Positions 2,765 through 13,032 of a stretch of 20,256 nucleotides of DNA are shown here, one piece after another. Under the pieces are notes generated by a model. It was given only the letters and a program-made list of their open reading frames with translations. It was not told the DNA's origin and searched no databases. Source of the DNA: a virus; the IMG/VR virus record IMGVR_UViG_3300018426_000210, positions 1 through 20,256 of that record; one strand, given 5' to 3'. Numbering within the stretch: the stretch's first letter is position 1; each line of letters opens with the position of its first letter. Made by a program: the position numbers and the translations under genes.

Positions 2765-3193
2765 ATGGCACTTACATACGAATGGAAAGTCACCGGTGTT
2801 AGAAAAACTGACACTGTGAATAGTGAAGGCGCTTCTTTAGAAGGTGCAGTTGTTCAAACATATTGGGAAGTCCACGGAACTGATGAGAATGGTAACAAAG
2901 CTCATTTTTCTGGTGCAACTCCTTTCAGTGCAGCAAACACACCTGCGGGTTCATTTGTTGCTTTTGAGGATTTGACTGAAGAAACCGTTCTTAGTTGGAT
3001 TAAAGCAGTAGTTGAAAACGACCAACCTTATAAAGAACATATCGACGAACGTATTCTTTACCAAATTGGTCAAGATGCAGTACAAGATGCACCTATGCCT
3101 TGGGCTCCAGAAGATGACCCATTAGTGGCATCGGTCCCAGCAGAAAGTGAAACTGTCGAATTAGCCAACACAGACCCAACTGACTCTGAGTAA
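2765..3193 (+). CDS. Small conserved phage protein, tandem paralogue A
   Basis: 142 aa with a GGAG ribosome binding site eight bases before the ATG. I do not recognise a function. It starts ALTYEWKVTGV and carries the blocks GTDENGN, SFVAFEDLTEE, VLSWIKA and DERIL, all of which recur in the next gene, so the two are tandem paralogues. A tail beyond residue ~110 is acidic and absent from the second copy. No signal peptide or membrane segment is seen, so it is probably soluble. The shape (short beta-rich N-terminus, then a helical LTEExVLxW block) resembles small hypothetical proteins common in marine T4-like phages, recalled from memory only. It has its own sigma70 and late promoters. Confidence 0.8.
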   Translation: MALTYEWKVTGVRKTDTVNSEGASLEGAVVQTYWEVHGTDENGNKAHFSGATPFSAANTPAGSFVAFEDLTEETVLSWIKAVVENDQPYKEHIDERILYQIGQDAVQDAPMPWAPEDDPLVASVPAESETVELANTDPTDSE

Positions 3194-3209
3194 TCCCAGG
3201 AGATAAGCA

Positions 3210-3542
3210 ATGACTTACACCTGGGAAATACTCTGGCTCGATACGAAAGACGTTGTTGACCCCAACGGGGTTACGCTGTCGAAAGCAGTTTTAGAAGTTC
3301 AATTCAAGAGAGTCGGAACAGATGATGATAGCAATAGATTTGCTATAGGCGGTGTTGCAGCTTTAAATACTGACGCTTTAGAATCATCTTCATTTATCGC
3401 ATTTGAATCACTCACAGAAGAACAAGTTCTTAATTGGGTAACAGCTGAAATAGGTCAAAATAACGTTGATGATTTTGATGCTAGGATTTTAGCTAAGAAA
3501 GAAAGATACGGTAAAGTAATGACCGAGGTTCCTTGGTCTTAA
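3210..3542 (+). CDS. Small conserved phage protein, tandem paralogue B
   Basis: 110 aa, 16 bases after paralogue A, with an AGGAG ribosome binding site in the gap. The alignment to A runs the whole length: TYTWEI, VDPNGVTLSKAVLE, GTDDDSN, SSFIAFESLTEEQVLNWV, then DARIL and a final PW. It lacks A's acidic tail. Function is unknown. It is probably cotranscribed with A from the promoters at 2683-2733. Both copies keep a Trp near residue 5 and the LTEExVLxW core, which suggests a shared fold and perhaps dimer formation between copies (inference). Confidence 0.8.
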   Translation: MTYTWEILWLDTKDVVDPNGVTLSKAVLEVQFKRVGTDDDSNRFAIGGVAALNTDALESSSFIAFESLTEEQVLNWVTAEIGQNNVDDFDARILAKKERYGKVMTEVPWS

Positions 3543-3547
3543 AAAAT

Positions 3548-3555
3548 CATAAATA
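3548..3555 (+). promoter_or_regulatory. Possible late promoter CATAAATA
   Basis: A match to NATAAATA in the 84-base gap before the carbohydrate cassette, ending five bases before the -35 box of the sigma70 promoter. The start codon at 3627 is 71 bases downstream. Confidence 0.45.
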
Positions 3556-3559
3556 ATAG

Positions 3560-3588
3560 TTGACATTTACATAAAACTGTGTTATAAT
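3560..3588 (+). promoter_or_regulatory. Consensus sigma70 promoter with extended -10
   Basis: TTGACA at 3560-3565 and TATAAT at 3583-3588 are spaced by exactly 17 bases, with TG one base upstream of the -10 (TGTTATAAT). It should drive the three-gene cassette at 3627-6665. It has the same architecture as the promoter at 2683-2711; the spacers differ apart from a shared TT at the start and TGTG near the -10. Confidence 0.8.
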
Positions 3589-3626: not shown

Positions 3627-4667
3627 ATGCATGATTTGCGCCGTCACGGTTTAGTACATTGGGCACTTAAAAGAGGTGCCTCAATTAAACCTATAATCCT
3701 ACCAAAAGAGCTTACTGGCGAAACAGGAATTATGAATCCCTCTATATTCATACATAGAGGGAAAATTTTATTAAACGTTCGTCACGTAAACTATACACTA
3801 TACCACTCAGAAGGTAAAAAGTTCCCGCATACTTGGGGACCACTTCAATATATTCACCCAGAAAACGATGTATCTTTAACAACACACAATATTATGTGTG
3901 AGCTTGATACTGACTTTAATGTGATTCCTACTTCACCTCATCGTATTAAAATGAATTTAGATACAGGTGAACCCACATGGAATTTTATCGGACTTGAAGA
4001 TGGAAGATTATTTTCATGGGAAGATAGATTATTCTTATGTGGTGTAAGAAGAGATTGTTATGATGACCAAGGTACTGGTCGAATGGATATGGCTGAAATA
4101 GAATTTATAGATGGTATATGGCAAGAAGTATCTCGTAATCCCGTTCCAGCTCCTCCACCAGACAAAACATTCTGTGAAAAGAACTGGATGCCAATTGTTG
4201 ATATGCCTTGGCACTTTGTGAAATGGTGTAATCCAACTGAAGTTGTAAAATATGATATTGATACGAGAACAACTGAAACAGTTCATCTTGACGAGACAAA
4301 AAGAATTGACATAAAACGTGATTTACGTGGTGGTACTCAAGTGTATCCTATTGGTGATGGAAGGCATATGTGTCTTACTCACGAAGTTGATTTAGGTAAA
4401 GATATTTTTGCAAGAAAAGACGGACATTATAACCATAGAGTAATCATTTGGGATAAAGATTGGAATATTATTAAGTATACTGATGACTTTCACTTCTTAG
4501 GGACTCAGAAGGACCCTACGACAGGTTACGATTACAATATTGAATTTGCTACGGGTATGACCTTTCTAAATGGAGAAGTTATTATCGTATTTGGATACCA
4601 AGATAACGGAACGTTCTTATTAAGAATGCCGGATAAACTTTGGTGGGAATTTGTACAGAGAGGATAA
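3627..4667 (+). CDS. GH130/GH43-like five-bladed beta-propeller protein
   Basis: 346 aa, with GGAG five bases before the ATG. The sequence reads like a five-bladed propeller of the glycosidase/phosphorylase type: MNPSIFIHRGKILLNVR at 36-52, GLEDGRLF at 122-129 (comparable to the GxEDxR block of GH130 beta-mannoside phosphorylases), CEKNWMP at 183-189, LRGGTQ at 233-238, THEV at 251-254 and EFATGM then FGYQDN at 306-327. These are likely active-site loops. If so it would cleave or phosphorolyse a glycan, but the substrate and even catalysis are not provable here. No signal peptide is seen, so it acts in the cytoplasm or as part of the virion. It is first in a cassette with a methyltransferase and a cytidylyltransferase-cupin gene. 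Confidence 0.65.
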   Translation: MHDLRRHGLVHWALKRGASIKPIILPKELTGETGIMNPSIFIHRGKILLNVRHVNYTLYHSEGKKFPHTWGPLQYIHPENDVSLTTHNIMCELDTDFNVIPTSPHRIKMNLDTGEPTWNFIGLEDGRLFSWEDRLFLCGVRRDCYDDQGTGRMDMAEIEFIDGIWQEVSRNPVPAPPPDKTFCEKNWMPIVDMPWHFVKWCNPTEVVKYDIDTRTTETVHLDETKRIDIKRDLRGGTQVYPIGDGRHMCLTHEVDLGKDIFARKDGHYNHRVIIWDKDWNIIKYTDDFHFLGTQKDPTTGYDYNIEFATGMTFLNGEVIIVFGYQDNGTFLLRMPDKLWWEFVQRG

Positions 4668-4668
4668 G

Positions 4669-5916
4669 ATGCACCAATTACAAGAACTATTAGAAACTCA
4701 TATACTGGACCCAAAAAATCCAGAGAAATTATTTGAGTTAGCGAAAGAATACGATAGATTAGGTCAAGGTGCTATGTCAGTATCTTTGTTTCTTAAGACT
4801 GCTGATTTAACAGAAGATAGATTATTACAATATAAATGTCTATGTGGAATTGGTTTATCTTATGAGAGACAAGGAGGAAGAACATTTACTGTTGAAGGTG
4901 CTTTCTTAGATGCAGCTGCTTTAATGCCAGACAGACCAGAAGCTCATTACTTTTTAGCAAGGATGTATTCTGAACAATCACGACATAAACATTCTTTATA
5001 TCATTCAAATGCTGGACTTAAAGCTGAAACAGTATTACCTAAACTTGATTATATTGGTGACCAATATCCTGGAAGAACCTATATGGCTTTTTATAATACT
5101 ATTGCAACATGGTATATTGCTGGTCAACAAACTGGAAAGCATAAACTCTTTGATTTAAAATATAAAGTTTGGACTGATGATTTTGTTTCTGGAAAGGTAG
5201 ATAAGATGTTAAGTCAAATATTCTATCCAGATACTATTCCTTATAAAAAGCATGATGAACCTAGATTTAAATATCCTTTCCCAGGCTTACAAGGCGTAAT
5301 GAGAAATTATTCTAAACACTTTCAAGACCTTTTTGTACTTACTGCTTTTAAAGGAAAGAGAAATGGTACTTATTTAGAGATTGGTTCAGGTGAACCTATT
5401 ACACATAACAATACATACTTACTAGAATCTGGATTTGGTTGGAAAGGTATTTCAATCGATAATGACCCAGGATTGTGTTGTGCTTTTAAAGAAGAAAGAA
5501 ATAATACAGTAATTTGTGCTGATGCTACAGACATAGGTTTTGAAGACTTATTTGCAAAACACTGTATTGACCCAGTTATAGATTATTTACAAGTTGATTG
5601 TGATGATGTTTCATTACAGATATTAGAAAATATTCCTTTCGATAAACATAGATTTGGAGTGATTACATTTGAACATGACGCTTATAGATTAGGAAATGAT
5701 AACAGAGATAGAGCTCGTGAATTACTAAAGGAGCATGGATATGTTCTAGTAGTAAGTGATTTAGGATTCCATCCCGAACATGCCTATGAAGATTGGTATA
5801 TTCACCCAGCCGTTGTAGAGTTTCCTAGAGCAATGGCAACCCCTCAAGATAGAATAAATTTTGTGTGGGATTATTTTATGGAACCTTTAACAGAGGAGAA
5901 TAGTTTAGAGATATGA
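4669..5916 (+). CDS. TPR-like protein with FkbM-type methyltransferase domain
   Basis: 415 aa. I chose the ATG at 4669, not an upstream in-frame TTG at 4651, because AGAGAGGA lies five bases before it and the TTG overlaps the previous gene. Residues ~1-125 are helical, TPR-like (AKEYDRLGQGAMSVSLF, then EAHYFLARMYSEQ). Residues ~205-400 look like an FkbM-family SAM-dependent methyltransferase: GTYLEIGSGEP at 233-243 is motif I, ISIDNDP at 261-267 carries the acidic residue expected to bind SAM ribose, and VIDYLQVDCDDVS at 303-315 with FGVITFEHD at 329-337 follow. FkbM enzymes commonly O-methylate sugars or natural products. Together with its neighbours this suggests capping or modification of a sugar. 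Its stop overlaps the next start (ATGA). Confidence 0.75.
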   Translation: MHQLQELLETHILDPKNPEKLFELAKEYDRLGQGAMSVSLFLKTADLTEDRLLQYKCLCGIGLSYERQGGRTFTVEGAFLDAAALMPDRPEAHYFLARMYSEQSRHKHSLYHSNAGLKAETVLPKLDYIGDQYPGRTYMAFYNTIATWYIAGQQTGKHKLFDLKYKVWTDDFVSGKVDKMLSQIFYPDTIPYKKHDEPRFKYPFPGLQGVMRNYSKHFQDLFVLTAFKGKRNGTYLEIGSGEPITHNNTYLLESGFGWKGISIDNDPGLCCAFKEERNNTVICADATDIGFEDLFAKHCIDPVIDYLQVDCDDVSLQILENIPFDKHRFGVITFEHDAYRLGNDNRDRARELLKEHGYVLVVSDLGFHPEHAYEDWYIHPAVVEFPRAMATPQDRINFVWDYFMEPLTEENSLEI

Positions 5917-6665
5917 TTACAGTGATAGTGACAGGTGGATTTGACCCAATACATTCGGGCCATGTTGCTTATTTAAAAGATGCATCATGTTATGGTACAC
6001 GTTTAGTTGTAGGTGTAAATTCAGATGATTGGTTAAGAAGAAAGAAAGGAAGAGAGTTCATGCCTTGGGAAGAACGCTCTGAAATTATAAAAGGATTAGC
6101 AAGTGTAGATGAAGTAATCGCATTTGATGATTCAGATGGCACAGCAATTGATGCTATCAAACAAGTTAAAGAAAAATATCCTAACGATAAGATTATATTC
6201 GCTAATGGTGGTGATAGAACAAAAGATAACATACCAGAAATGGTGTTCGATGATGTTGTCTTTGAATTTGGTGTAGGTGGTGAAGATAAAAAGAACTCAA
6301 GTAGTTGGATTCTTAAAGAATGGTCTCAACCTACAGTACAAAGAGCATGGGGAACATATACTGTTTTAGATACAAATGGTTCATGGCAAGTTAAAGAACT
6401 CGCATTTGACGTAGGAAATAGTCTTAGTGACCAAAGACACTTCGATAGGTCAGAACACTGGCATGTCGTACAAGGTGAAATTGAAATGAGATTAGAATTT
6501 GCTAATGGCGATAAAGAAATTAAAACATATCGTAAAGGTCAAAGTATAGATATTCCAGTAAATACGTGGCATAAAGCAATCAATGTAGGTACAGAAACTG
6601 CTAAAGTAATTGAAGTTTGGTTAGGAGATAATCTTACAGAAGATGACATCGAACGTCGTGATTAG
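5913..6665 (+). CDS. Cytidylyltransferase fused to a mannose-6-phosphate-isomerase-like cupin
   Basis: 250 aa, overlapping the previous stop by four bases, so translationally coupled. Residues 1-~125 are a nucleotidyltransferase of the TagD/HldE-C type: GGFDPIHSGH with the HSGH nucleotide-binding motif at 14-17, WEERSEII near 52-59 and GGDR at 99-102. Residues ~140-250 are a cupin resembling the C-terminus of type II phosphomannose isomerases: RHFDRSEHWHVVQGEIE at 175-191 with candidate metal ligands, GQSIDIPVNTWHKAINVG at 209-226, and WLGDNLTEDDIER. The likely job is to activate a polyol- or sugar-phosphate with CTP (or ATP) while the cupin binds or isomerises a related sugar. The combination in one chain is unusual. 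Exact substrates cannot be read from the sequence. Confidence 0.75.
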   Translation: MITVIVTGGFDPIHSGHVAYLKDASCYGTRLVVGVNSDDWLRRKKGREFMPWEERSEIIKGLASVDEVIAFDDSDGTAIDAIKQVKEKYPNDKIIFANGGDRTKDNIPEMVFDDVVFEFGVGGEDKKNSSSWILKEWSQPTVQRAWGTYTVLDTNGSWQVKELAFDVGNSLSDQRHFDRSEHWHVVQGEIEMRLEFANGDKEIKTYRKGQSIDIPVNTWHKAINVGTETAKVIEVWLGDNLTEDDIERRD

Positions 6666-6673
6666 TATAAATA
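6666..6673 (+). promoter_or_regulatory. T4-type late promoter TATAAATA
   Basis: An exact TATAAATA directly after the stop codon of the cassette and 47 bases before the ATG at 6721. It probably drives the structural run that starts there in the late phase. Confidence 0.7.
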
Positions 6674-6720: not shown

Positions 6721-7668
6721 ATGGCGATTAAAGTCGGCGGTACTACTATTATTGATAATAGTAGAAACATATCAAATTTAGAAGGTTTTTCAGGCTCGTT
6801 CGGAGACTTTAGACCTGAACATTCAGATTTAGGCAATATAACAGGAACTGCAACACTAGATTTTTCTGGTGCTCGTGTTAGTAAAGCCACTATGACTGGG
6901 GATACAACATTCTCAGAATCAAACAAAATAATTGGTAGAGATAAAGTACTTTATATCGATACCAGCGCATCTGGTTATACACCAACATTTTCATCTAACG
7001 TAGAATTTCCTAATGGTACACCAACGTGGTCTGGTTATAGACACTGGGTAATATCATTTATATGCTGGGGTAACACAGTTGTAAGAGCAACAGCACTAGG
7101 TTTTACAGATGCTGGTACACCACAGTCAAACGTTCCGCAACAATTCCTATTAGATTCTAATTTTGAAACTTTTAATTTCTTTTCATCCCCAAATTACGCA
7201 GAATGTTGGTGCGCAGTAGATTTCGAAAGAGATGATGTAAACAACAGAATTAAAATAGGAGCTTGGAGTGGTGATTCAAGTGCTATGTCATCAACACAAT
7301 ATACGTACTTAAATTATACTGGGTTAACTGGAATTGATGCTACTACGGGAGTTCAAGTACAATATAATGTACAATCACAGTCATGTGGTGGTTCTGAATG
7401 TAATGCTAACCAATATAGTTTTGGACCAACTCCAGTGAGTGACGGATACAATTCTGGTACTTATTATAACATGTCAGGATACGTAAGATTTGGTTGGTCT
7501 GCGATGGCATTAAATGATGGTGACGACACATACGTATCGGGGAATATGCAATCAGCAAACCCAGATTTAAGAATTAAAATTGTTGCTAATGAAGGAACTT
7601 TCTATTCAACTTGTGAAATGGGAAATATTACTTTGCGAGCTCAAAATGCTGACCAACCTACAAAATAG
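6721..7668 (+). CDS. Virion-like protein, MAIKV-module paralogue 1
   Basis: 315 aa, GGAG six bases before the ATG. The first ~130 residues form a module shared with the genes at 7678 and 8683: MAIKV, then an LYIDTSASGYTPTFSSNV block, TPTWSGYRHWVISF and a VRATALGFT block. The rest is beta-rich, Ser/Thr/Asn/Gly-rich and not shared. A cysteine-containing stretch occurs near residues 220-230 (QSCGGSECNANQ). No signal peptide or membrane helix is seen. The composition, late promoter and position before gene 13, where T4 has genes 12 and wac, suggest a tail-, neck- or whisker-associated fibre or adhesin. No named family is recognised. Confidence 0.7.
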   Translation: MAIKVGGTTIIDNSRNISNLEGFSGSFGDFRPEHSDLGNITGTATLDFSGARVSKATMTGDTTFSESNKIIGRDKVLYIDTSASGYTPTFSSNVEFPNGTPTWSGYRHWVISFICWGNTVVRATALGFTDAGTPQSNVPQQFLLDSNFETFNFFSSPNYAECWCAVDFERDDVNNRIKIGAWSGDSSAMSSTQYTYLNYTGLTGIDATTGVQVQYNVQSQSCGGSECNANQYSFGPTPVSDGYNSGTYYNMSGYVRFGWSAMALNDGDDTYVSGNMQSANPDLRIKIVANEGTFYSTCEMGNITLRAQNADQPTK

Positions 7669-7677
7669 GATATTAAT

Positions 7678-8484
7678 ATGGCAATTAAAGTAGACACAGT
7701 AGAAGTATTATCAAACGGATATGCATTAAGTAATATTGTTAATGCTACTGGAGTATACAGTGATTTATTTCCAGATGGACAAGCTATTGGAACTACTATC
7801 GACATGGATGTACCTCTACAAACAAAGGTACTAGGTGCAGCAACTACATTTACATTTTCAAATATTGCAACAGGAAAACAATGTGTATTACTTTTAGATT
7901 TAAGTTCTGATGGGTATGCACCTACTTTTCCTTCGGGGACAGGGTGGCCAGAAGAAACTGAACCTTCTTGGACAGGAACAAGATATTGGCAAGTTTGTTT
8001 TACTGCATGGGATAACACAACTGTAAGAGCGATTGCAACAGGATATTCGGGTGCTGGAACAAATGCGGCAAATGTTGATTTAGGAGCTAACTTTACCTCA
8101 TATGTAAGTGCTTCAGGTCAATTCGCAGAAGCAGTATGTAGATTTAATATGAACAATGATGGTACTATGAACACTAACAGTAGTGGTAGTACTGGTAGCG
8201 GTGGTTCTTCTGGATTAATAAGTAGGACGTGGTTAGCTTCAGGAAGTGCTTCAGATTATGACATTAAGTGGGACGGAACAGGCGCTACAAGTAAATTAAC
8301 AACGAATCCTGGACTTGGAACCTGGTTAAATTTAGGTACTACGAGAACTTGGGTAATAGAAGATGATGATATAGGTGAAGGAAATGTTCACTCAGTTTCA
8401 GGTACTCTTTCAATTAGAGACGCTACAACCCAATCTGTTATAGACACATGTACTGCGACATTAAGCGTCGATGCACTATTTTAA
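7678..8484 (+). CDS. Virion-like protein, MAIKV-module paralogue 2
   Basis: 268 aa, nine bases after paralogue 1, with TAGGA as ribosome binding site. The N-terminal ~125 residues repeat the module: MAIKV, VLLLDLSSDGYAPTFPSG, PSWTGTRYWQVCF, TTVRAIATGYSGAG. A Ser/Gly linker at ~160-182 (NTNSSGSTGSGGSSG) separates it from a C-terminal beta-rich domain of about 85 residues (RTWLASGS to VIDTCTATLSVDALF). The layout is conserved mount plus linker plus variable tip, as in many phage receptor-binding or decoration proteins (inference). No enzyme motif is seen. Confidence 0.7.
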   Translation: MAIKVDTVEVLSNGYALSNIVNATGVYSDLFPDGQAIGTTIDMDVPLQTKVLGAATTFTFSNIATGKQCVLLLDLSSDGYAPTFPSGTGWPEETEPSWTGTRYWQVCFTAWDNTTVRAIATGYSGAGTNAANVDLGANFTSYVSASGQFAEAVCRFNMNNDGTMNTNSSGSTGSGGSSGLISRTWLASGSASDYDIKWDGTGATSKLTTNPGLGTWLNLGTTRTWVIEDDDIGEGNVHSVSGTLSIRDATTQSVIDTCTATLSVDALF

Positions 8485-8494
8485 GGAATAAAGA

Positions 8495-8683
8495 ATGGAT
8501 ATACCAACACCAAAACACGACGTAATACAACAAGGCGGAGTGGTTATAAGGCAATTCTATACAAAGAATGCTAATAACGAGATTATTGAAGTATTCAAAA
8601 CAATGCCTTATCATGCAAATAACGAACTAGATACTGCAGAGTGTCAGAATTTTATTACAAATGTATTAAGAGGAAGTGAATAA
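8495..8683 (+). CDS. Small hypothetical protein, 62 aa
   Basis: The ATG at 8495 has AAGGA seven bases upstream, and its stop shares one base with the next start (TAATG), so it looks like a real gene in the operon. The protein begins MDIPTPKHDVIQQGG and has no membrane segment. It lies between two paralogues of the MAIKV module and has no resemblance to either. It could be a small accessory or chaperone for the neighbouring fibre-like proteins, but nothing in the sequence shows this. Confidence 0.6.
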   Translation: MDIPTPKHDVIQQGGVVIRQFYTKNANNEIIEVFKTMPYHANNELDTAECQNFITNVLRGSE

Positions 8684-9519
8684 TGGCTGTTAAGATTTCT
8701 AACACAACAGTAATTGCTGATGACTTTCAGTTATTAAACGTTGCCGATACCATTGGTAAATATACTGATTTGCATGCAGTTGCAACTGATACTACGAACA
8801 ACATCAACTTCACTACGACTATGATGACGTGTACTATGACTCAAAATGAAACATTCACCGAGTCGAATGGTGCACCTGGTTTAACTGCGACTTTACTTTT
8901 AGATACAACAAATTCTTCACATACTCCAACATTTTCAAGCAATGTAAATTGGGAAAATAATACTACACCAACTTGGAGTGACTTTCAACACTGGCACATT
9001 ACATTCTTTTACGCAGATAGTAATGATATACGTGCAGCTGCAGTAGGTTACACTGATATAACTCCTTCAGAATCGGTAACTCTTCATGGAACTTCTAGTA
9101 GTCCACAAAGTACGTTTATGACTACTATGCCAGCAAGTGCAGATTGCATTTACGGATATCAGTTTACTAGTGATGGTAACATAAAAAGATATACAAATGG
9201 TTCTGTTTATGGTAATACTGGTTTATGGACTTGGAGTACATCTAAGTGGAATAATATTACACCATCACAAACATATTACATAAGATTCAGTAACCACGAT
9301 ACTTCACAAGGTGTGGGATTAGATACGAGTGCGAGTGCTCCATTAAATACTTGGAATGCATTAACTTCATCTAGATATGCTAGATACGATGTTGCTGGAC
9401 CACGAAATTCGGTAGGTACGCTTATTTCAGTTTTTAAAGTTGAAATTGCTTCTGATTCAAATGGTTCGAACATAGTTGCTACTGGGTACTATGAATGTGA
9501 AATTAACGGAACAGCATAG
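8683..9519 (+). CDS. Virion-like protein, MAIKV-module paralogue 3
   Basis: 278 aa, start overlapping the previous stop by one base. The N-terminal module is again present: MAVKIS, ATLLLDTTNSSHTPTFSSNV, TPTWSDFQHWHITF, IRAAAVGYTD. The C-terminal ~150 residues (from SESVTLHGTSSSPQ) are unlike those of paralogues 1 and 2 and are rich in Thr, Ser and Trp, with SKWNNITPSQTYYIRF and a final GYYECEINGTA. Paralogue 1 is the closer relative in the TPTFSSNV block. The likely role is a virion surface or fibre component; it is not recognised as a named family. Confidence 0.7.
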   Translation: MAVKISNTTVIADDFQLLNVADTIGKYTDLHAVATDTTNNINFTTTMMTCTMTQNETFTESNGAPGLTATLLLDTTNSSHTPTFSSNVNWENNTTPTWSDFQHWHITFFYADSNDIRAAAVGYTDITPSESVTLHGTSSSPQSTFMTTMPASADCIYGYQFTSDGNIKRYTNGSVYGNTGLWTWSTSKWNNITPSQTYYIRFSNHDTSQGVGLDTSASAPLNTWNALTSSRYARYDVAGPRNSVGTLISVFKVEIASDSNGSNIVATGYYECEINGTA

Positions 9520-12585: not shown

Positions 12586-13032
12586 ATGAAAATTGGATTT
12601 ACATGTAGTACATTTGACCTGCTTCATGCTGGCCATGTACAAATGTTAAGAGATGCAAAATCTCAGTGTGATTATTTAATGGTAGGATTACAGATTGACC
12701 CATCAATAGACAGACCAAAAGAAAAGAACCCACCTATACAATCAGTAGTTGAAAGATATACTCAACTCAAAGCTGTAAGATATGTTGATGAAATTATTCC
12801 TTATAAAACAGAACAAGACTTGATAGATATATTAGAGCTATATACAATTCACGTTCGTATTTTAGGTGAAGAGTATAGAGATAAAGAATTTACAGGAAAG
12901 GATATTTGTCGTAAAAGAGATATAGAATTGTTCTTTAATAAACGTGACCATAGGTTCAGTACATCTGGTTTACGAAAAGCTTGTGCTTGGGTAAATAATG
13001 ATGGTGATTGGAAAATGACTAAGGAAGGATAA
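12586..13032 (+). CDS. Glycerol-3-phosphate-cytidylyltransferase-like protein
   Basis: 148 aa, a little longer than TagD (about 130 aa). It is a single nucleotidyltransferase domain: GFTCSTFDLLHAGH at 4-17 with HAGH at 14-17, VVERYTQLKAVRYVDEIIP at 54-72, GEEYRDKEFTG at 94-104 and FSTSGLR at 124-130, which corresponds to the C-terminal substrate-binding ISTT-type motif. It should transfer CMP to a polyol phosphate such as glycerol-3-phosphate. It differs clearly from the cytidylyltransferase at 5913, so it is not a recent duplicate. Its place between genes 15 and 16 interrupts the T4 order. TAGGA precedes the start, and its stop overlaps the gene 16 start (TAATG). Confidence 0.8.
   Translation: MKIGFTCSTFDLLHAGHVQMLRDAKSQCDYLMVGLQIDPSIDRPKEKNPPIQSVVERYTQLKAVRYVDEIIPYKTEQDLIDILELYTIHVRILGEEYRDKEFTGKDICRKRDIELFFNKRDHRFSTSGLRKACAWVNNDGDWKMTKEG

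Follow-up and report, generated by a model that had tools for sequence, protein, structure and literature searches.

The window analysed here, a 20,256-base virus record from IMG/VR (IMGVR_UViG_3300018426_000210), derives from a marine T4-like myophage and contains a cassette of three genes, designated A, B and C, which encode a predicted sugar-acting propeller, a methyltransferase and a nucleotidyltransferase–cupin fusion, respectively (Table 1). The genes run head to tail, as initially annotated, with a gap of one nucleotide (nt) between A and B and a 4-nt overlap between the TGA of B and the ATG of C (5913–5916). The start of B is placed at the ATG at 4669, which has a good Shine–Dalgarno sequence (GAGAGGATAAG); open reading frame (ORF) calling gives an alternative TTG start at 4651 that overlaps A. 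Genes matching gp13–gp20 lie 3' of the cassette, and the closest relatives of the large terminase are found in the Sinorhizobium phages phiN3 and phiM12 (∼60%). The gene order fibre, two DUF7936 genes, A, B, C, and further on gp13, is seen again in dozens of IMG/VR contigs, and given this recurrence the arrangement of the three genes is not due to chance. The initial annotation placed the cassette next to the tail fibre; it is indeed near the fibre but not adjacent to it, as the two DUF7936 genes intervene. In the window and in its relatives the cassette lies between the tail-fibre genes and the neck genes gp13/gp14, which is the position that defines the host-recognition cluster (PMC7029224).

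Table 1. Coordinates of the cassette genes, their 5' neighbours and associated promoter sites in the window (aa, amino acids; SAM, S-adenosylmethionine). The sequence TATAAATA is taken here to be the T4 late-promoter consensus.
Feature	Position	Strand	Description
DUF7936 gene pair (PF25590)	2765–3542	+	2.8e-13 and 2.3e-12; directly 5' of A; constant neighbours of the cassette by synteny
Late-promoter-like site CATAAATA	3548–3555	+	One mismatch from TATAAATA; ATAAATA at 3549
Sigma-70-type promoter TTGACA-17-TATAAT	3560–3588	+	Before A–B–C; 12/12 consensus match
Gene A	3627–4667	+	346 aa; GH130/GT108-fold five-bladed propeller; predicted synthetic mannose-type sugar transferase or phosphorylase
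Asp125 codon of A	3999–4001	+	Predicted catalytic Asp of the GLED.R motif; aligns with the GLEDPR Asp of Teth514_1788
Gene B	4669–5916	+	415 aa; TPR at residues ∼1–200, FkbM-like SAM methyltransferase at ∼203–415
Gene C	5913–6665	+	250 aa; PF01467 nucleotidyltransferase (∼5928–6230) fused to PF01050 ManC-type mannose-6-phosphate-isomerase cupin (∼6333–6656)
T4-type late promoter TATAAATA	6666–6673	+	Directly after the C stop; opens the next unit and bounds the cassette

Gene A matches no Pfam or NCBIfam model and has a single weak PHROGs match, and B of the window also has no Pfam match, so that profile and fold evidence was required to name either protein. An AlphaFold2 model of A (44 homologues; pLDDT 89.3, pTM 0.90) is a five-bladed propeller of the GH130/GT108 type. 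In a Foldseek search of the PDB with this model the top 44 matches (E = 2.8e-10 to 3.6e-7) comprise GH130 phosphorylases, synthases and hydrolases, the GT108 mannosyltransferases of Leishmania and GH130-like putative glycosidases. A profile built from phage and bacterial relatives of A retrieved GH130-type entries only from the PDB (best E = 1.4e-4); the bacterial relatives had to be added, as a sequence search of the PDB with a phage-only profile gave no match. Among 30 relatives of A, 11 weakly match PF04041 (best E = 2.3e-5), and hhalign pairs the A family with GH130 proteins from Bacteroidota at 98.7%. The GH130-like character assigned initially is thus borne out by the Foldseek, PDB-profile and hhalign results. 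Because the window A does not score above the Pfam cut-off for GH130, A is filed as 'GH130/GT108 fold, unclassified'.

The mannose ligands in the −1 subsite of the GH130 enzyme Teth514_1788 are Asn28, Asp92 and Asp281 (PMC4264767), and their aligned counterparts in A are Asn37 (through the alignment with Teth514_1789), Asp125 and Asp326, giving the Asn/Asp (proton donor)/Asp set of a GH130/GT108 −1 subsite. Like the GT108 enzymes (Leishmania MPT-1/2/4; PDB entries 6q4w, 6q4x and 6q50) and those of GH130 (Teth514_1788, 9fj8), A combines a five-bladed propeller with an N-P motif, a GLED.R motif, the final Asp of the mannose subsite and the Arg of the +1 subsite. It differs from both families in its low identity (11–15%, below Pfam thresholds), in its own motifs EKNWMP and R/S-G-G/S-Q and in its association with a methyltransferase or its fusion to glycosyltransferases. 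Asn37, Asp125, Asp326, Arg52 and His252 are fully conserved across the 30 A sequences aligned from phages and bacteria. In a profile alignment His252 pairs with the GH130 consensus His, which is of the phosphorylase type, while the other phosphate-site positions have no confident alignment. The nucleophile site is occupied by basic residues in phosphorylases and by glutamates in hydrolases (PMC4599007); by this distinction His252, as the counterpart of the GH130 consensus His, would speak mildly against hydrolysis by A.

Relatives of A are seldom found in bacteria (4 of 299 Pseudomonadota and 1 of 198 Bacteroidota genomes sampled, counts that include the metagenome-assembled genomes (MAGs) on which the searches were centred and in which the matches appear to be phage-derived). 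They occur as fusions to GT2 domains (L188 and L185) and to GT25 (L204) and, in L195, as part of a GT2–TPR–A–glycosyltransferase chain with a DXD motif; in L188 the A relative adjoins FkbM and AT3-SGNH acyltransferase genes. Among predicted viral structures (BFVD) the nearest neighbours of A come from phages and pithoviruses and, as large proteins, from giant viruses; the large neighbours are 806–1297 aa long and are named fucosyltransferase, LicD/FKTN or WcaK-like pyruvyltransferase. Thus, A is linked to glycan building in three unrelated settings. The retained sugar-binding residues, the phosphorylase-type His and the glycosyltransferase fusions of the bacterial relatives suggest that A works in synthesis and not in degradation, and the initial proposal that the pathway trims a sugar is not sustained. 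The BFVD entries A0A481Z9G3, A0A3G5AFP7 and A0A1V0SDN7 are GH130-like propellers close to A; propellers of this kind occur in pithoviruses and also in Solivirus/Indivirus proteins of 1279–1297 aa that are annotated as fucosyltransferase or LicD.

The AlphaFold2 model of B (pLDDT 94.9) has a TPR domain at the N-terminus and a Rossmann methyltransferase domain behind it. TPR matches were obtained, the best fold matches of B are with the TPR part of O-GlcNAc transferase, and methyltransferase-fold matches include 4qtt and 3eey. The methyltransferase profile matches a bacterial FkbM protein (L188:12660–13346) with an E of 6.9e-6, that protein itself matching PF05050 at 1.4e-10, which identifies the methyltransferase domain of B as an FkbM homologue by domain-profile search. 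B therefore has the SAM-binding Rossmann domain of the FkbM family (PF05050) and a profile that matches bacterial FkbM proteins, but it differs from that family in the TPR domain in front and in a score below the curated PF05050 cut-off. The TPR, fold and FkbM profile matches agree with the domain assignment first given to B.

Both domains of C score above their Pfam cut-offs (PF01467, 7.2e-14, 52.6 bits against a cut-off of 21; PF01050, 1.9e-22), in keeping with the cytidylyltransferase-like and cupin parts already recognized. The HxGH motif of the PF01467 superfamily is present in the alignment as H14-S-G-H17. In the cupin, Gln174, His176, Arg179, Glu181, Trp183 and His220 are identical in all 54 phage cupins and all nine ManC cupins compared, so that C has the type II isomerase cupin of ManC. 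Like ManC/AlgA, a bifunctional mannose-1-phosphate guanylyltransferase/mannose-6-phosphate isomerase, C ends in a cupin with an identical Q.H..R.EHW motif, His220 and a terminal E.DIER. In place of the N-terminal guanylyltransferase of ManC it has an unrelated HldE/TagD-type nucleotidyltransferase, and with TIGR01479 it scores 71.5 bits against a cut-off of 373. A dead cupin, in which the second HxH-like His (position 178) would be a lost metal ligand, was considered and rejected; judged by the motif QxH(x)4E(x)6G and by comparison with ManC, Gln174, His176, Glu181 and His220 are retained. The ManC-type cupin indicates mannose instead of the polyol phosphate considered initially, and a mannose-type sugar is suggested by two independent hints, the A subsite and the C cupin.

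Across ∼300 Pseudomonadota genomes, the top-scoring matches listed are confined to the C cupin and lie in ManC-sized ORFs of ∼480 aa. Among these genomes only one MAG has the fusion in full length, on contigs C48, C81 and C116, which also carry A, and the corresponding loci (L178, L180 and L181) have phage genes around the cassette. These three contigs belong to the Rhodobacteraceae MAG Water_Bin34, which hints that the hosts are Rhodobacteraceae and that contigs of phage origin were assigned to a bacterial bin. None of the isolate-phage and plasmid records searched has a match covering 80% of C, and a nucleotide-level search of isolate phages returned a single match of 176 base pairs. In IMG/VR, 459 stretches encode relatives of C, and the best 80 of these relatives span its full length or almost all of it. 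In this analysis the domain fusion was encountered in uncultured phages only.

Among the 73 distinct A proteins from phages whose sequence continues far enough downstream, B is adjacent in 61, fused to A in nine, within four genes in one and absent in two. The fusions include a single 738-aa A–TPR–methyltransferase chain (L050 and L051) and A–methyltransferase chains of 570–581 aa that are followed by a separate B-like protein; in L047 A is fused to another FkbM domain. Over 37 non-redundant loci the pairwise distances of A correlate with those of B at 0.90, compared with 0.78 for A and gp14 and 0.61 for A and gp13, the mean distance being 0.28 for A and 0.46 for B. C follows A–B in 48 of the 49 loci of the window's clade. 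An obligate A–B–C trio was rejected, as C is missing from 16 of the 18 A loci outside this clade; A–B is the core unit and C an addition in the clade of the window. The three genes do co-occur in relatives and the grouping proposed initially survives this comparison, as a unit for the A–B pair and not with C as an obligate member, and the recurrent adjacency and the fusions support the joint sugar-modifying pathway that it implied. In two divergent phages, L044 and L162, C is separated from A–B by glycosyltransferase and methyltransferase genes and belongs to a cluster with GT2, GT17, GT25 and FkbM genes, and elsewhere C adjoins GT8 and TylF-type methyltransferase genes.

The strong promoter that had been noted ahead of the cassette is, as a sequence, a perfect sigma-70 site. 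The expectation for such sites is 0.017 per window on the plus strand, and the site is not unique in the window, since a second 12/12 match at 2683–2711 precedes the DUF7936 pair. Among 62 regions 5' of A homologues, which are not all independent, 18 have a similar site. The late-promoter sequence TATAAATA occurs exactly four times in the window (2726, 6666, 15110 and 19217), in each case intergenic and on the plus strand, with none on the other strand. The DUF7936 pair has the same dual kind of promoter as the cassette, consisting of the sigma-70 site at 2683–2711 and a late site at 2726–2733. Because of the sigma-70 site 5' of A and the late promoter right after the C stop, A–B–C is likely to be transcribed as a separate unit, with an early-type promoter plus a late-like site.

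On balance, A–B–C is probably a module of the T4-like host-recognition cluster that builds a glycan in the cytoplasm and finishes it with a methyl cap. The cupin of C would convert fructose-6-phosphate to mannose-6-phosphate (or a close analogue) and, following a host mutase step, the nucleotidyltransferase domain of C, unrelated to that of ManC, would charge the sugar phosphate. A would then transfer a mannose-type sugar onto the growing glycan and B, tied to A through its TPR domain or as a fusion partner, would O-methylate the product as a cap. The gene arrangement, the folds, the conservation of sugar- and metal-binding residues and the joint inheritance and fusion of A and B are observed, whereas the direction in which A works, the sugar and nucleotide, the sequence of steps and the acceptor are inferred. 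Several observations weigh against this module. The window A is below every Pfam threshold, including the PF04041 cut-off, its Foldseek TM-scores to PDB entries are just 0.43–0.57, and its phosphate- or nucleotide-binding residues are mapped for one His only (by hhalign with Bacteroidota GH130 proteins). The nucleotidyltransferase of C is far below the HldE and TagD cut-offs (TIGR02199, 70.2 versus 181.5; TIGR01518, 39.9 versus 165.4). C is present in just two of the 18 A loci outside the window's clade, where A and B need another sugar source, and the recurrent A–B pair could act on a non-mannose substrate. No phosphomannomutase turned up, although no search aimed at one was made, and none of the members has a known activity. 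A more specific version of the module is rather unlikely to hold in full: in this version A would belong to an unclassified GH130/GT108-fold glycosyltransferase family of phages, bacteria and giant viruses, and C a phage-specific ManC analogue that activates mannose with a nucleotide other than guanosine diphosphate (GDP), resulting in GDP-independent mannosylation with methyl-capping of the product by B.

The acceptor could be a host-surface glycan or the tail fibre, which are about equally likely. There is close to an even chance that the module acts on the envelope of the infected cell, changing its lipopolysaccharide, its capsule or another glycan there, which might serve to exclude other phages. 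In bacteria, relatives of A have as neighbours acyltransferase and FkbM genes characteristic of surface-polysaccharide clusters, the same role has been proposed for the glycosyltransferases and rfaE of this cluster in pelagimyophages (PMC7029224), and the perfect sigma-70 promoter would permit early expression. However, that promoter is found 5' of A in part of the clade only (18/62), and the window is without a lipid-linked step, a flippase or a transporter.

A second possibility, plausible though short of even, is that the module adds the sugar and the methyl groups to the tail fibre, or to some other structural protein, thereby protecting it or tuning receptor binding. The position of the cassette between fibre and neck genes is kept across the whole clade, the A–B pair of cyanophage DSL-LC02 sits between tail-fibre genes, and large fibre-like genes lie 5' of A in L048, L049 and L051; moreover, TPR domains often bind protein, and the fold matches of B with O-GlcNAc transferase involve its TPR part. 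Location among fibres is nevertheless not decisive between virion and envelope, because marine T4-like phages generally gather glycan genes there, and such genes adjoin fibres throughout the hypervariable host-recognition cluster (PMC7029224). An early-type promoter is also ill-suited to a purely late substrate. Collagen-like (Gly-X-Y) ORFs lie near 12 A loci and near none of the C-only loci, but in a matched control of 80 relatives of the L048 sheath gene such fibres were present in one of seven with A versus 17 of 39 without A (Fisher p = 0.22), and the apparent link between A and collagen-like fibres was dropped. Very long fibres of this kind are located directly or closely 5' of A in L048, L049, L051, L044 and L002 and are not specific to A.

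A degradative role of A, as a β-mannosidase or phosphorylase trimming a host glycan and passing mannose-1-phosphate to metabolism with C as an auxiliary metabolic gene, is improbable. GH130 includes both hydrolases and phosphorylases, the latter being reversible (PMC4599007, PMC8950772), and type II mannose-6-phosphate isomerases of cyanophages have been interpreted as carbon-metabolism genes (PMC9602691), but A is fused to glycosyltransferases and to a methyltransferase, has His252 and not a hydrolase-type Glu at the aligned position, and has no other catabolic gene nearby. There is also little likelihood that A is a dead propeller that binds sugar or acts as a scaffold for B and glycosyltransferases, since, although it is highly divergent from all classified members and always paired with another enzyme, its catalytic Asp, two other mannose ligands, +1 site Arg and one His do not vary among the 30 diverse relatives and it has diverged less than B (0.28 versus 0.46), as for an active enzyme.

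Glycan genes in the host-recognition cluster, phage type II mannose isomerases (PMC9602691) and the GH130/GT108 enzymes (PMC8950772) are already known, whereas the A–B pair, the A family as a glycan-building propeller and the domain combination of C were not found described; searches of the literature on phage FkbM or GH130 genes gave no paper on the A–B pair. The host-recognition cluster of pelagimyophages and cyanomyophages resembles the window in that its tail fibres are interspersed with glycosyltransferase and rfaE-like genes and in its position beside the neck gene gp14, but the text describing it makes no mention of FkbM, mannose or cytidylyltransferase genes (PMC7029224). Cyanophage S-SCSM1 encodes a monofunctional type II mannose-6-phosphate isomerase with 267 metagenomic relatives (PMC9602691), which like C is a phage-borne type II cupin and unlike C is single-domain, without a nucleotidyltransferase. 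The nearest prior annotation of the A–B pair is that of the DSL-LC02 depositors, who labelled it 'beta-mannosyltransferase' and FkbM; its A homologue is 41% identical and B matches in the TPR part only. The corresponding pair in cyanophage S-SCSM2R ('MGP protein' and a CcmH/NrfG-like protein) is 43% identical for A and 34% over 95% of B for the second gene. Both pairs differ from that of the window in having no C alongside and in extra domains: DUF6445 in B of S-SCSM2R (L001:15965–17827), and FkbM together with radical-SAM and SPASM domains in B of DSL-LC02 (L002:12947–15097). If the proposed roles are correct, A would define a glycan-building propeller family missed by domain libraries, whose bacterial and giant-virus relatives could be annotated at once, and C would represent a second way to build ManC, with phages recombining sugar-activation domains. 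The module would also offer a testable case of marine T4-like phages decorating their own fibres versus repainting their hosts.

The tail fibre at 113–2677 is of the S74-chaperone type and has a recurring (Y/F)D..NTGYY..PAG motif; in L033, a longer contig of the same phage, the fibre ORF extends to at least 3016 aa. Downstream of the cassette (6721–9519), u6721, u7678 and u8683 share a similar N-terminus, interchange in number and order among relatives and are probably small virion proteins. A second, stand-alone nucleotidyltransferase of the TagD/HldE-like type lies between gp15 and gp16 (12586–13032); it is 79% identical to a gene of several Vibrio phages and has matches in 134 isolate-phage records.

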